Shown: in pieces, positions 7,783 to 44,688 of the stretch | Position numbering within the stretch: the first letter of the stretch is position 1 | Layout: each line of letters opens with the position of its first letter | NCBI GenBank assembly: GCA_003024175.1 | Contig: MDYQ01000153.1 | Location: 1-64,000 of the forward strand | Length of the DNA: 64,000 nucleotides | Direction: 5' to 3' | DNA from: Planoprotostelium fungivorum | Lineage: Eukaryota; Evosea; Variosea; Cavosteliida; Cavosteliaceae | Program-made: the position numbers and the translations under genes | Notes under the pieces: model-generated | Seen by the model: the letters and a program-made list of their open reading frames with translations, nothing else | What the model was told of the DNA's origin: nothing | Databases searched by the model: none

Positions 7783-7903
7783 TTGATGTTTTTGGAAAGG
7801 CGAGTGGCGTACGATACTAGGCGACTCAAAATCACAAAATCGAACCGTCCGTTTTATGATGCAGTTGCGGTCATTCAGCGATTATGAAGTTGATGTAGCA
7901 AAA

Positions 7904-8020
7904 GCTACGACACGATGGATTCCCGTGCGGTCTCCCATCACAGTATTAGCATCGCCCACGACTGCTTACCTTACGAGTTCGGAATGGGTTCGTGGGCTTT
8001 CAGTCTGGTATGATCGTAGC
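7904..8020 (-). rRNA. 5S rRNA gene, copy A
   Basis: The 117-nt minus-strand sequence starts GCTACGATCATACC and carries the conserved CCGAACTCGTAAGGTAAGC block and the GATGGGAGACCGC segment of the internal promoter region. The 3' end TCGTAGC pairs with the 5' end, and TTTT follows as a terminator. It stands alone, about 120 bases from a tRNA-Gly in the same orientation. Confidence 0.92.
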
Positions 8021-8269
8021 TGTCTGCGTTCTTCGTATAACACAGTGAGAGGCACACTCTTCAGAAGACTCTGCCCACGATCGACTTTATCCTCTTCATC
8101 ATCATCATGCTGAGACGTTTGGACGCCGCTCGATACAACAGACAATATTACAGCAAGGCTACTCGATAGAAGAGATGTATTACGATCACTCCTTCTCTTC
8201 CTTCACTTCCATCTGCTCCTCCGTCCTCTCTTCCACCTTCTCCTCCTTCACCTCGCTCGTCTCCTCCAT

Positions 8270-23269: not shown

Positions 23270-23299
23270 TGCCTTTCGGACCGGGAAACCGGCATCCGT

Positions 23300-23331
<32 letters not shown>

Positions 23332-23378
23332 GGCCCCTGCGCAAGGATGACACGCAAAATCGAGAAGTACCAAATTTT
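23270..23378 (+). ncRNA. U6 spliceosomal snRNA
   Basis: The core sequence AAAATTGGAACGATACAGAG, then AAGATTAGCATGGCCCCTGC, then GCAAGGATGACACGC is the highly conserved U6 body including the ACAGAG box (5' splice site pairing) and the AGC triad. A run of six T at 23375-23380 is a polymerase III stop. Upstream is a GC-rich hairpin (CCGGGAAACCGG) that may be the 5' stem-loop, and an A10 tract flanked by GTTGACC and GGTCGAC. The exact 5' end is uncertain. No intron interrupts the core. Confidence 0.93.
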
Positions 23379-23797
23379 TTGAAGGTCTAAACCCCTGAAC
23401 TCGATGTATCGATCGATAATCGAGCTTTTTCTATCTTTTTTGACATTTGAACCGCTTCCCCTAAAGATGTTCGTTGTGTGCGTGATGAGTTCGTGAGAGC
23501 GTGATGCGCCGTGGGGAGGTTTCTCATCCGATTAGGAAACCTTTACGAGTAGCTGCTATGGAGAATGCACGTGTGTGAAGAAATATGGACTGTATTGAGA
23601 ATGCTTAACTATACATATCACAGATGATCCACACCACATACACACACTCCCGTATCCTTCTCAAGGATGAGCGAAGTATATCTGCGCAAAAGATAGCGAC
23701 ATTTTTATTTAAATACGCTATCGCAAATCGAAGTGAGAGGGAAAACAACGAGCACGTGATGCGATTGGGTGTGATCACATCAAACAATTTAGACACG

Positions 23798-31066: not shown

Positions 31067-32048
31067 AAAGAATGTTCTTAGAGTCACGCGTCGCTGGATG
31101 ATGTGGGTATCCACACAGAGACGATCCATGATGACACAAACAGGTGATTCGATTTGATGCAGGCCAGAGTGTAGGCGTACGATTGGTCCCACAGGTTTCT
31201 GAAGAACTGAAGGAATGGGATTGAAAGATTCCGTTGTCGACACAATTTTATTGTACATAAAGAAGCGATTCGACGGAACATCATCCTTCACCTGCCTCTT
31301 CATCTTCCGCGGTTGTGGTCCTGCACTCTTTGCATCGTTTCTCTTGGAAAACAAGAACAAGTGAGACGTCATGTTGGAAGGAAGTCCGGCGCATCATCCA
31401 CAACACGATGAAGATGTGATCTGTTCGATGATGAAATATTCAAATGGTTGATCGACTCGTGTCATTGTCTCTGCCGTCCAAATTGTAACAGATCTCTTCG
31501 GGAAGGGTGTCCACCTGCGAACTGGATGTAACATTCCTGCTGAATTCACCGAAATAAATCTGTTCTTATCGTTCTGGTGGTTGTAAAAGGTGGATGCGCG
31601 CGCAAAATTTTTCATTTTTCAAAAAGGGTCCGAGCGCGGCATCACGCATCCCAACCAACCGCATGGTCTATCCTCTATCCAACAAGTGGCACAAGCTGTG
31701 AAAGGAAGGATAACAAGAGCGTAGTCCCTCCCTCGAAGTTCTCCCACCCCAGTCCTTTCTCTACCATTTTCTCAAGTCTTCCCTCTTAGACTCTCAAGTC
31801 TTCCCAACGAACTCGTAAGGCCCTCTACACCCTCCTGCTTCTGTCTTTCTTCACAATCAAATCATATCGAATCGACATTCTTCAAACCTTCTCATCTCCT
31901 CTCACGAAGACTCTAAGTGCCTTCTATGACCCTTCTAACGCTGACGCAGGTGAATTCGGACCGAATTTGATTCGAGGGGCGGGAAATCATCGCCCACAAT
32001 TATTGTAGACCACTTTAACGGCTCGTTCACACTGCCGTCCTCCCCCAG
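31067..32048. other. Region between GNAT and U2 snRNA; weak minus-strand ORFs
   Basis: Minus-strand frames at 31061-31372 (103 codons) and 31394-31615 (73 codons, starting MKNFARASTFYNHQ) could be exons of one small gene, since a GT-AG join between them is possible. I recognise no domain, and the first overlaps the GNAT stop. From 31640 to the U2 gene I see no coding frame. The last 150 bases should hold the U2 promoter. Confidence 0.35.
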
Positions 32049-32275
32049 AGCATCTTCTCGGCTTTTTAAAGCTTAGATCAAGGTGGGCTGCGGCTTTTTT
32101 GACCATCATACATCATCATCATCTCTTCATTGCTAATTCGCGCCTAGTGTAGTATCTGTTCTTATCAGTTTAGTCGACTGATAGCCCTGGGTACTCCAGG
32201 GCATCCGACTAAATTAATTTTTCTCTCGGGTGAGAGGATCAACACCGGAGCTTGCGAAGGTACCTCTTACACGGA
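32049..32275 (+). ncRNA. U2 spliceosomal snRNA gene, interrupted by an intron
   Basis: The 5' part reads CTTCTCGGC...GCTTAGATCAAG, the U2 stem I and U6-pairing region. The second part begins TGTAGTATCTGTTCTTATCAG, the branch-site recognition sequence GTAGTA and stem IIa. It continues with the GCCCTGG...CCAGGGC stem IIb, a CGACTAAA that can pair with the stem IIa loop TTTAGTCG, an Sm-like site AATTTTTC, and a CTCTC-GGGT-GAGAG hairpin. In other eukaryotes AGATCAAG is joined directly to TGTAGTATC. Here 65 bases separate them. Both ends of the transcript are approximate. Confidence 0.88.
32083..32147 (+). other. 65-nt GT-AG intron-like insertion in U2 snRNA
   Basis: The insert starts GTGGGCTG and ends CGCCTAG, with TGCTAATTC about 12 bases before the AG as a plausible branch site. 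Removing it exactly rebuilds the universally conserved AAGATCAAGTGTAGTATCTG. Size and ends match the protein-gene introns in this window. Position corresponds to after nucleotide 31 of human U2 by my count. Confidence 0.82.
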
Positions 32276-32950
32276 TGAATTCAGCATTGCACTGAAGCTG
32301 ACTTTCGTCCACCGTTCAAATAATCAAAAGATACGAAAATACAAGAAAATCGTCCAGAAACGATTGAGCGAACATACAACGAGGTAAATTACTCGTGGTA
32401 CAAAAAGTGAGTGATCGGGATGAAATGATGGACATCAGATGAAGAGCCAATACGAAGAACGAGAGGTGAGTGATGATCGATGTGGTATGACGAAGGAGCG
32501 TGCATCATGTGAAGCATCGACGTGAAAATCGTTGCCTGAATCAGGGAAGATAGACAGGATGAGTGTAGAGATCACCCAACTAATGCGATGATCGGAGCGA
32601 TCGAGTTGCACAATCCCATATAGAAATAATAAAGGATTTTCCTTTCCACCATTGTTTGAAAGGATATTCGTTTGCTCCACTTTTATTGTGCACTGCAGTC
32701 GTGAGATTCATCCAATACGATTCAGTGGGCTCGCTTCGTATCCTCTGTCCATGATCCGTTCCATATTATGTCGAAGTGATGACTCGGTCGAACACACGAC
32801 AAATTCATGATCTTCATCGTCACTGGTTGACAGACGTACGATGTTTCACGATTCAAGTGCAGTGAGGGGAATCTACTTCATCGCGGGCGATTGACATCAT
32901 CGATGCAATTGCAATTTCTGTTCGTCATTACCCACGTGTGACATCAAAAA
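32276..32950. other. Non-coding stretch between U2 and 5S copy B
   Basis: Only an 81-codon minus-strand frame (32435-32680) without recognisable features is present. I see no gene, tRNA or repeat that I can support. Confidence 0.4.
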
Positions 32951-33067
32951 GCTACGACACGATGGGTTCCTGCGTGGTCGCCCACCGCGGTACTGGCATC
33001 GCCCATGTTTGCTTACCTTACGAGTTCGGAATGGGATCGTGGGTGTTCAAGCAGGTATGATCGTAAC
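32951..33067 (-). rRNA. 5S rRNA gene, copy B
   Basis: The 117-nt minus-strand sequence starts GTTACGATCATACCTGC and contains CCGAACTCGTAAGGTAAGC and the CGGTGGGCGACC segment. The 3' end reads GTGTCGTAGC followed by TTTTT. It differs from copy A at many loop and stem positions while keeping the fold, so the copies are not homogenised. Confidence 0.9.
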
Positions 33068-33277
33068 TATCTAGACTGTTGACTTCGACCATTGAAAACG
33101 CAATAGAGCGACAGCACTCAATCAGATGATGTCTCTTCTGCATATCTCTCACTGTTGGTACAGCTGATCGATACGTAGCAAGACACCTTCTGCATATGTT
33201 GGCTCATCCAATTCGTGTACGGCTCATCGTCCATGAAGAATGGTCGCCGCTTGACCACTTGTGACTGCAAAAGGAGT

Positions 33278-43389: not shown

Positions 43390-43875
43390 GTCCTGTCTAT
43401 TGATCGTTTGTCGTCTGTCTGTCGAAAAATCGCCCACTTATTCGTCTACAGTCCCGTCACTTTTGGACATGCACGTGACATTTGGCTTCTGGTTGGTGTC
43501 CATGCATTTGTTGTGCATATTCCAGTAGTCGGGAGAGAAGTGATCCATCCTCAATGCACCATTTGACTGCCAACCGAACGGAAAAGCCGAATCAGATGTT
43601 CGTCACACTTTTGTATATTTCCCTCCATCAAATCCTTCTCACACTTCGTGACAGATATAAGCGTAAATTACATCTCCCCAATACAAGCTTGTATTTGAAC
43701 CCAAGAGGGACGAGTCAGCGAGTAGTATTTGCAACTGATACCACAAGCAAACACAGGTCGACATCGATGACTGTTGTCTGTCAACATCTCGCGGACACAG
43801 TGCAATCATGTCTGATGAATCGATGATCGCTGTGGTGGGAAGATGCATCAACTTTTTTATGCCTATTCCCACACA
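43390..43875. other. Non-coding stretch with an inverted-repeat element
   Basis: No credible gene. It contains copy 1 of a short inverted-repeat element (43481-43591) and the upstream flank of 5S copy C. Confidence 0.45.
43481..43591. mobile_element. MITE-like element, copy 1
   Basis: About 110 bases match the copy at 50848-50973 along most of their length, with one larger indel. The ends, starting TTTGGCTTCTGGTTGG and finishing AAAGCCGAA, are imperfect inverted repeats. No coding capacity. No clear target-site duplication is seen. Confidence 0.55.
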
Positions 43876-43992
43876 GCTACGATCATACCTGGTTGATCAC
43901 CCACGATCCCATGCCGAACTCGTCAGGTAAGCAACCGCGGGTGATGATAGTACTGCGATGGGTGACCGCACTGGACACGATCGTATAATAGC
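43876..43992 (+). rRNA. 5S rRNA gene, copy C (divergent)
   Basis: The sequence starts GCTACGATCATACCTGGTTG and keeps GATCCCATGCCGAACTCGTC and GATGGGTGACCGC. Its 3' end reads CGTATAATAGC instead of GTGTCGTAGC, so the terminal helix pairs less well than in copies A and B. TTTTC and a later TTTTT follow. It may be a functional variant or a decaying copy. Confidence 0.82.
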
Positions 43993-44688
43993 TTTTCTGT
44001 TCTTTTTGGCCCAATAGTGCCATTCTTTCACGACACGACGTGCGTGATGGTGACGAAAACCAAGGATGAAGCTTTTTTTCAACCTGCCTTGTGTGTGGGT
44101 CTGATTGATGACGAACAATGAGTTGAGTGGATGAGCGGTGAAGTCTCACTCGCGATGAAGATCTCAGATTAGGCATTGTCACATTTCCGTCTCTTTTACT
44201 GAAAACCTTATATAGAGATTTTCCCTTCACAAATACATTCAAGCTTCATTATACGTTGATATGATCACCATCCAAGGGAACTCTCAGTGGATTACGCAAT
44301 CCCACACAAATAAATAAGAAATGATTGACCATTGTAGGGACCCAGCTGTCAACAGGAGATTCAGTGCTGCTCCCGAGCAAAGGCATAATCTTGCTAACAA
44401 TGGAGAGACACGCACCTCATGAGGCGAGGAAGGTCAGGCGAGACCGAAGTTCCGTGGTGACCCGACGTTGGGTCTCACACAACAAACCGAAACGTGAACG
44501 TACAGGTGTGTCGTGAACTGTTAGATCCTCTATTCAACCAGTCGGATCGACTGGATCGTCGATGAGATCGGCAAAATCGCAATATTCACATTTCCTTTTG
44601 AAAACCATAAAAACATTTTCTCATAGCACAGCCGTTCATCAGTTGCGACGTGCTCTACGAGTACGGGACTGATACGATTCTAGAAGGT
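43993..44688. other. Non-coding stretch upstream of the LRR-PP2C gene
   Basis: Minus-strand frames here lack recognisable domains. TATATAGAG near 44211 and the sequences up to 44688 may be promoter or 5' leader. I see no RNA gene that I can name. Confidence 0.35.

Follow-up and report, generated by a model that had tools for sequence, protein, structure and literature searches.

At about the middle of the 64,000-nucleotide stretch of DNA analysed here (the window) lies a U2 small nuclear RNA (snRNA) gene interrupted by a 65-nt insert. Judged from comparison of the gene copies, it very probably belongs to a nine-copy U2 family that carries a major-type spliceosomal intron of 65-69 nt and is spliced to working U2, beside an intron-free U2 family.

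The interrupted U2 gene

The gene spans about 32050-32316 on the + strand, and thus reaches beyond the end at 32275 given in an earlier sequence-only reading, and it is interrupted by a single GT...AG insert. That reading had described a U2 gene split by a 65-nt GT-AG insert containing CTAAT, a description borne out by the exon borders at 32082 and 32148 and by the recurrence of the interruption in nine of the 15 U2 genes of the genome. The window sequence likewise supports its reading of the insert as bearing the hallmarks of a spliceosomal intron and as situated immediately 5′ of the stretch that recognises the branch site. The features of the gene are as follows:

31993-32000, + strand: upstream promoter element CCCACAAT, similar to the Dictyostelium DUSE, 57 nt 5′ of the gene start
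32050-32082 (5′ end approximate), + strand: U2 exon 1, which contains GATCAAG and 5′ stem-loop I and differs little from that of the intronless class
32083-32147, + strand: putative 65-nt intron GTGGGC...CCTAG, assigned from recurrence at an identical site, splicing signals and divergence relative to the exons
32133-32137, + strand: branch-like CTAAT, in which the A at 32136 is the presumed branch point, at a distance of 12 nt from the 3′ splice site
32148-32316, + strand: U2 exon 2, with GTAGTA (32149-32154), stem-loops IIa and IIb, the Sm site and stem-loops III and IV; assigned from Rfam U2, identity among copies and helix arms
32216-32224, + strand: Sm-site-like AATTTTTCT, read from the sequence by its likeness to the Sm consensus
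32325-32331, + strand: downstream CAAAAGA, a 3′ box common to snRNA genes of the genome

Exon 1 comprises 33 nt, with AGATCAAG ending at 32082, and exon 2 comprises 169 nt, with TGTAGTATCTG beginning at 32148. The Rfam U2 model (RF00004) matches 32121-32317 with a score of 86.6 bits against a curated cut-off of 46, which supports assignment to U2; the first ~30 model positions are placed badly in this alignment, on the 3′ end of the insert. The hallmarks of U2, namely the branch-recognition GUAGUA, the Sm site and the arms of stem-loops I-IV, were also found, the helices by complementarity of hand-set arms. The insert is situated between what we take to be the U6-pairing stretch of U2 and its branch-recognition GUAGUA, and an RNA that kept it would hardly work with these two stretches split. 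Three dispersed 5S rRNA genes are also present in the 64 kb (7902-8021, 32949-33068 and 43875-43994), one of which follows the U2 gene at a distance of ~630 bases, on the opposite strand.

Two classes of U2 gene

A covariance search of the 36.9-Mb genome, which scores the best candidates only and did not recover the window's own U6 gene, returned 15 U2 matches, of which 14 were above cut-off and the fifteenth was a truncated copy. The exact pattern GTAGTATCTGTTCT, which sees only those U2 copies matching all 14 bases, occurs at 15 genomic sites that are exactly the 15 U2 genes, while its reversed control occurs at two. Nine of these genes are interrupted at an identical site by inserts of 65, 68 or 69 bases (69 in seven copies). 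These include the window gene itself (contig C94), genes on C90, C120, C451 and C23, and four on C387. Because the position is identical in 9/15 genes, the insert is excluded as a chance product. Among the four C387 genes, one is cut short by an assembly N, and the comparisons of exons and inserts were all made without it. This copy (L018, about 1918-2240) lies ~0.3 kb before a full copy and may reflect an assembly join.

The other six genes (three on C27, two on C123 and one on C234) are intron-free, with a continuous AGATCAAGTGTAGTATCTG. Five of them are 78-81% identical to the interrupted class, and the sixth 71-72%. It had been proposed that the window might hold the only U2 gene, in which case the cell would need splicing to make its own spliceosome. 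The first part does not hold, given eight further interrupted genes and six uninterrupted ones, and strict self-dependence is not required because six intron-free genes exist, so that the first U2 need not depend on splicing.

Contamination was considered as a source of the two classes and rejected, owing to a composition of the intronless contigs within the window's own range and to a promoter element and 3′ box held in common. By GC and tetranucleotide content, C27 and C123 lie at distances of 0.056 and 0.069 from the window, compared with 0.053-0.097 for 12-kb pieces of the window, and the 4.2-kb C234 lies at 0.116, compared with 0.077-0.253 for 3.2-kb pieces. No contig holding both classes was found among those that carry the 15 U2 genes, and the composition would also fit a close relative; the presence of both classes in one genome is the simpler reading.

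Intron signals and divergence

The donor dinucleotide is GT in eight of the nine inserts and GC in one, that of C451, which begins GCACGC and constitutes a weak donor. A G at position +5, a terminal AG and a CTRAY motif whose A lies 12 nt before the insert's end are found in 9/9, counts that are not independent since the inserts are homologous and of only three sequence types. The inserts thus have the GT/GC...AG ends and branch-like site of the major intron class, and they diverge while the exons are conserved. Between the window gene and each of the seven other full interrupted copies, 1-3 of 202 exon positions differ as against 22-25 of 69-73 insert positions (Fisher p 1.7e-12 to 2.4e-15). 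Across all eight full copies, only 4/202 exon columns are variable, exon 1 being identical (8/8) and exon 2 98.2-100% identical, and multiple alignments of these copies give a mean identity of 64% for the inserts (38-100%) and 67% for the 90 bases upstream (40-100%). Conversion of a single block was rejected as the cause of the exon likeness because the identity extends to exon 1, across the insert from exon 2. Conservation of the exons alone therefore argues for a functional molecule without the insert.

The ABCF2 gene, which lies at the end of the window, provides a yardstick in seven of its introns. These were placed with the JGI protein P0001, 98% identical to the hand-joined query, with GT-AG borders allowed up to 4 bases away from an exon edge. 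They measure 37-81 nt, and each has a GT-AG placement (one allows two). A G at +5 is present in 5/7, and 5/7 have CTGA close to the 3′ end, the A lying 10-11 nt before the last base as compared with 12 nt in the U2 inserts. In length and signals the U2 inserts are similar to these introns of the genome, as judged on seven introns of one gene, three of which contain a strict CTRAY. Among the 120 ABCF2 protein matches listed, with the best 8000 candidates scored, the nine best are JGI proteins of 68-98% identity, followed by plants and oomycetes at 59-65%; the JGI data thus seem to include the same species or one very closely related. A search with one lineage-specific open reading frame of the window gave 165 candidates, of which none was significant.

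Promoters, 3′ boxes and RNA folding

The element CCCACAAT is situated 56-58 nt upstream of all 15 U2 genes. The motif [CA]CCAYAAT lies 58-64 nt upstream in 15 of the 16 U1, U4, U5 and U6 genes tested (a set that omits the window U6 and the degenerate copies L032 and L033), the exception being one U4 copy. Downstream, CAAAAGA follows 13/15 U2 genes, all except the truncated copy and that on C234, and [CG]AAAAGA follows 10/16 of the other snRNA genes tested. By their promoter element and 3′ box, U2 genes of both classes look alive. One study describes the upstream sequence element of Dictyostelium as lying about 60 nt before spliceosomal RNA genes of both polymerases, and gives it three Cs in two dictyostelid groups (PMC7919456). 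The U2 element resembles this description in motif and spacing, a likeness that would fit an amoebozoan origin of the DNA.

Four interrupted copies were tested with the insert omitted, and in each of them both arms match as complements in stem-loops I, IIa, IIb, III and IV; one IIb pair and one III pair are changed on both sides between the two U2 classes. This helix test used hand-set arms in 7 of the 14 full U2 genes, with stem III undefined for C234; one intronless variant has no match to the hand-set arm string of stem III. The predicted fold of the joined RNA is better than 200/200 shuffles (z -3.79), and for the unspliced RNA 1/200 shuffles is as good (z -2.63). In its best predicted fold, the joined RNA forms neither IIa nor the hand-set stem III, and its branch-recognition stretch is paired; stems IIa and III are assigned from the complementarity of their arms.

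Other small RNAs of the genome

Matches were obtained for U1 (six, four above cut-off), U4 (three), U5 (six) and U3 (four), and for U6 as two matches on C74 that cover the full span, of which the second is degenerate, and a short one below cut-off on C448, in addition to the window gene. No insert was found in these other snRNAs or in U3, where match lengths leave no room for one, subject to the escape of interrupted copies from best-candidate scoring. The C74 U6 gene is followed directly by its degenerate U6-like copy (L031/L032, C74:56400-56602), and the shortened third copy is L033 (C448:117157-117206). The six U1 matches (L022-L027, on C82, C392, C231, C24, C90 and C25) have two kinds of 5′ end, ATACTTACCTG in two and ATACTCACCTG in four. 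From its sequence, a U1 with ATACTCACCTG would pair best with GUGAGU donors, and the genome may thus have two U1 specificities. A U12 gene (L042, C9:21400-21552) and a U6atac gene (L043, C4:75292-75414) are each preceded by CCCATAAT, and the organism likely possesses a minor spliceosome. Pieces of mitochondrial COX1 occur on contig C425 (L044/L045), repeated and frame-broken, with a best JGI protein 89% identical among the 120 listed.

Removal and origin of the insert

We infer that the interrupted U2 genes would be transcribed from the shared snRNA promoter, that the intron would be removed by the cell's own major (U2-dependent) spliceosome, and that the joined 33 + 169-nt RNA would serve as working U2 in spliceosomes. 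The six diverged intron-free genes could start or sustain splicing, which would make self-dependence partial.

Were the interrupted genes instead silent or decaying, the intronless class alone would make U2. The presence of full-length intronless genes fits this proposal, as do the truncation of one interrupted copy and the GC donor of another, but exons that vary at so few columns in eight full copies, amid strongly diverged inserts and upstream DNA, are not what decay would leave, and the promoter element and 3′ box are retained in 9/9 and 8/9 interrupted genes; silence is accordingly improbable. The genome also contains matches to U12 (67.9 bits) and U6atac (58.5 bits), so that the insert might be removed by the minor (U12-dependent) spliceosome and the processing of U2 be independent of U2. 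Introns of the U12 type are marked by an [AG]TATCCTT donor and a TTCCTTAAC branch. None of the nine inserts begins even with [AG]TATC, and TTCCTTAAC is absent from the last 35 bases of all nine with up to two mismatches allowed, which renders this route very improbable.

Slimmer still is the chance that the insert is kept and functional, or is cut out by an endonuclease or ribozyme. The GC start of one copy would fit any route, but the insert diverges freely save at its splicing signals, is unpaired in the centroid fold and, at 65 nt, is much shorter than self-splicing introns; if retained, it would hold the U6-pairing and branch-pairing stretches 65 nt apart. Splicing by the major spliceosome is therefore the most likely route for the insert on the signals that it contains. 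Because this route is the best supported and U12-type signals occur in 0/9 inserts, U2 is probably needed to make interrupted-class U2, a paradox of self-making that is removed by the six intron-free genes, if they are expressed. A more speculative extension, which we regard as rather doubtful, is that the interrupted genes form a self-dependent supply, in which U2 is made only as fast as spliceosomes process it, giving feedback on spliceosome number. The intron-free family would then act as a starter, either constitutive or stage-specific, and the work of the two isoforms might differ in part.

As to origin, we favour one insertion event, in an ancestor that all the interrupted genes share. 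Within the sensitivity of the search, the rest of the genome yielded no donor copy of the insert: the window insert matches itself alone, and the C120 insert matches six places, all of them U2 genes. The search with the C120 insert did not see the C94, C451 and C23 inserts and skips simple repeats, so that a diverged or repetitive donor could escape it. Transposons that target U2 genes have been reported, as far as the available text of two articles indicates (PMC4640811, PMC3706591). A mobile element was considered as the source and rejected, as the window and C120 inserts match U2 genes only. A search for relatives with the insert gave 0 matches in the collections viral_contigs and genome_contigs, neither of which is expected to contain protist nuclear DNA.

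Comparison with known snRNA and snoRNA introns

The basidiomycete yeast Rhodotorula hasegawae presents a likeness in its U2 gene with an mRNA-type intron. This intron is known here from the title of the original report (Takahashi et al. 1993, cited in PMC2586383). In the present case the organism is not a yeast but a protist with a dictyostelid-like promoter element, and the intron occurs, in diverged forms, across nine genes that exist alongside a diverged family lacking it. Among the matches listed from the open-licence literature on snRNA introns and genes, in the text available, no non-fungal U2 intron was found, nor is one mentioned in the accessible portion of an article from 2026 that treats the spliceosome of Entamoeba histolytica (PMC13292270).

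The passages available on fungal U6 describe introns in Schizosaccharomyces pombe and other fungi (PMC10484740, PMC5832005), of which that of Schizosaccharomyces pombe is thought to stem from reverse splicing, since it lies near catalytic nucleotides (PMC10484740). As described there, those introns are alike in being of mRNA type and in their closeness to the catalytic region of a spliceosomal RNA, but they interrupt U6 rather than U2, and full-length U6 genes here (window 23271-23379 and C74:56400-56499) are without an insert. As of 2017, frequent interruption was known among small structured RNAs for U3 and U6 only, and the accessible text reports no diverged paralogue families for fungal U3 (PMC5832005). 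The interrupted fungal U3 snoRNA genes, so far as described in that text, resemble the present U2 genes as small structured RNAs in several copies. The four U3 matches here, unlike fungal U3, cover 206 nt of the 219-position model and leave no room for an insert.

Where U2 itself contains an intron, the spliceosome has to process a catalytic RNA of its own, and the cases found in the literature are fungal. A gene family with three diverged intron types beside an intron-free family offers a natural test of the need for the introned genes, of the splicing of RNA from an snRNA promoter, and of reverse splicing into the catalytic core as the origin of a U2 intron.
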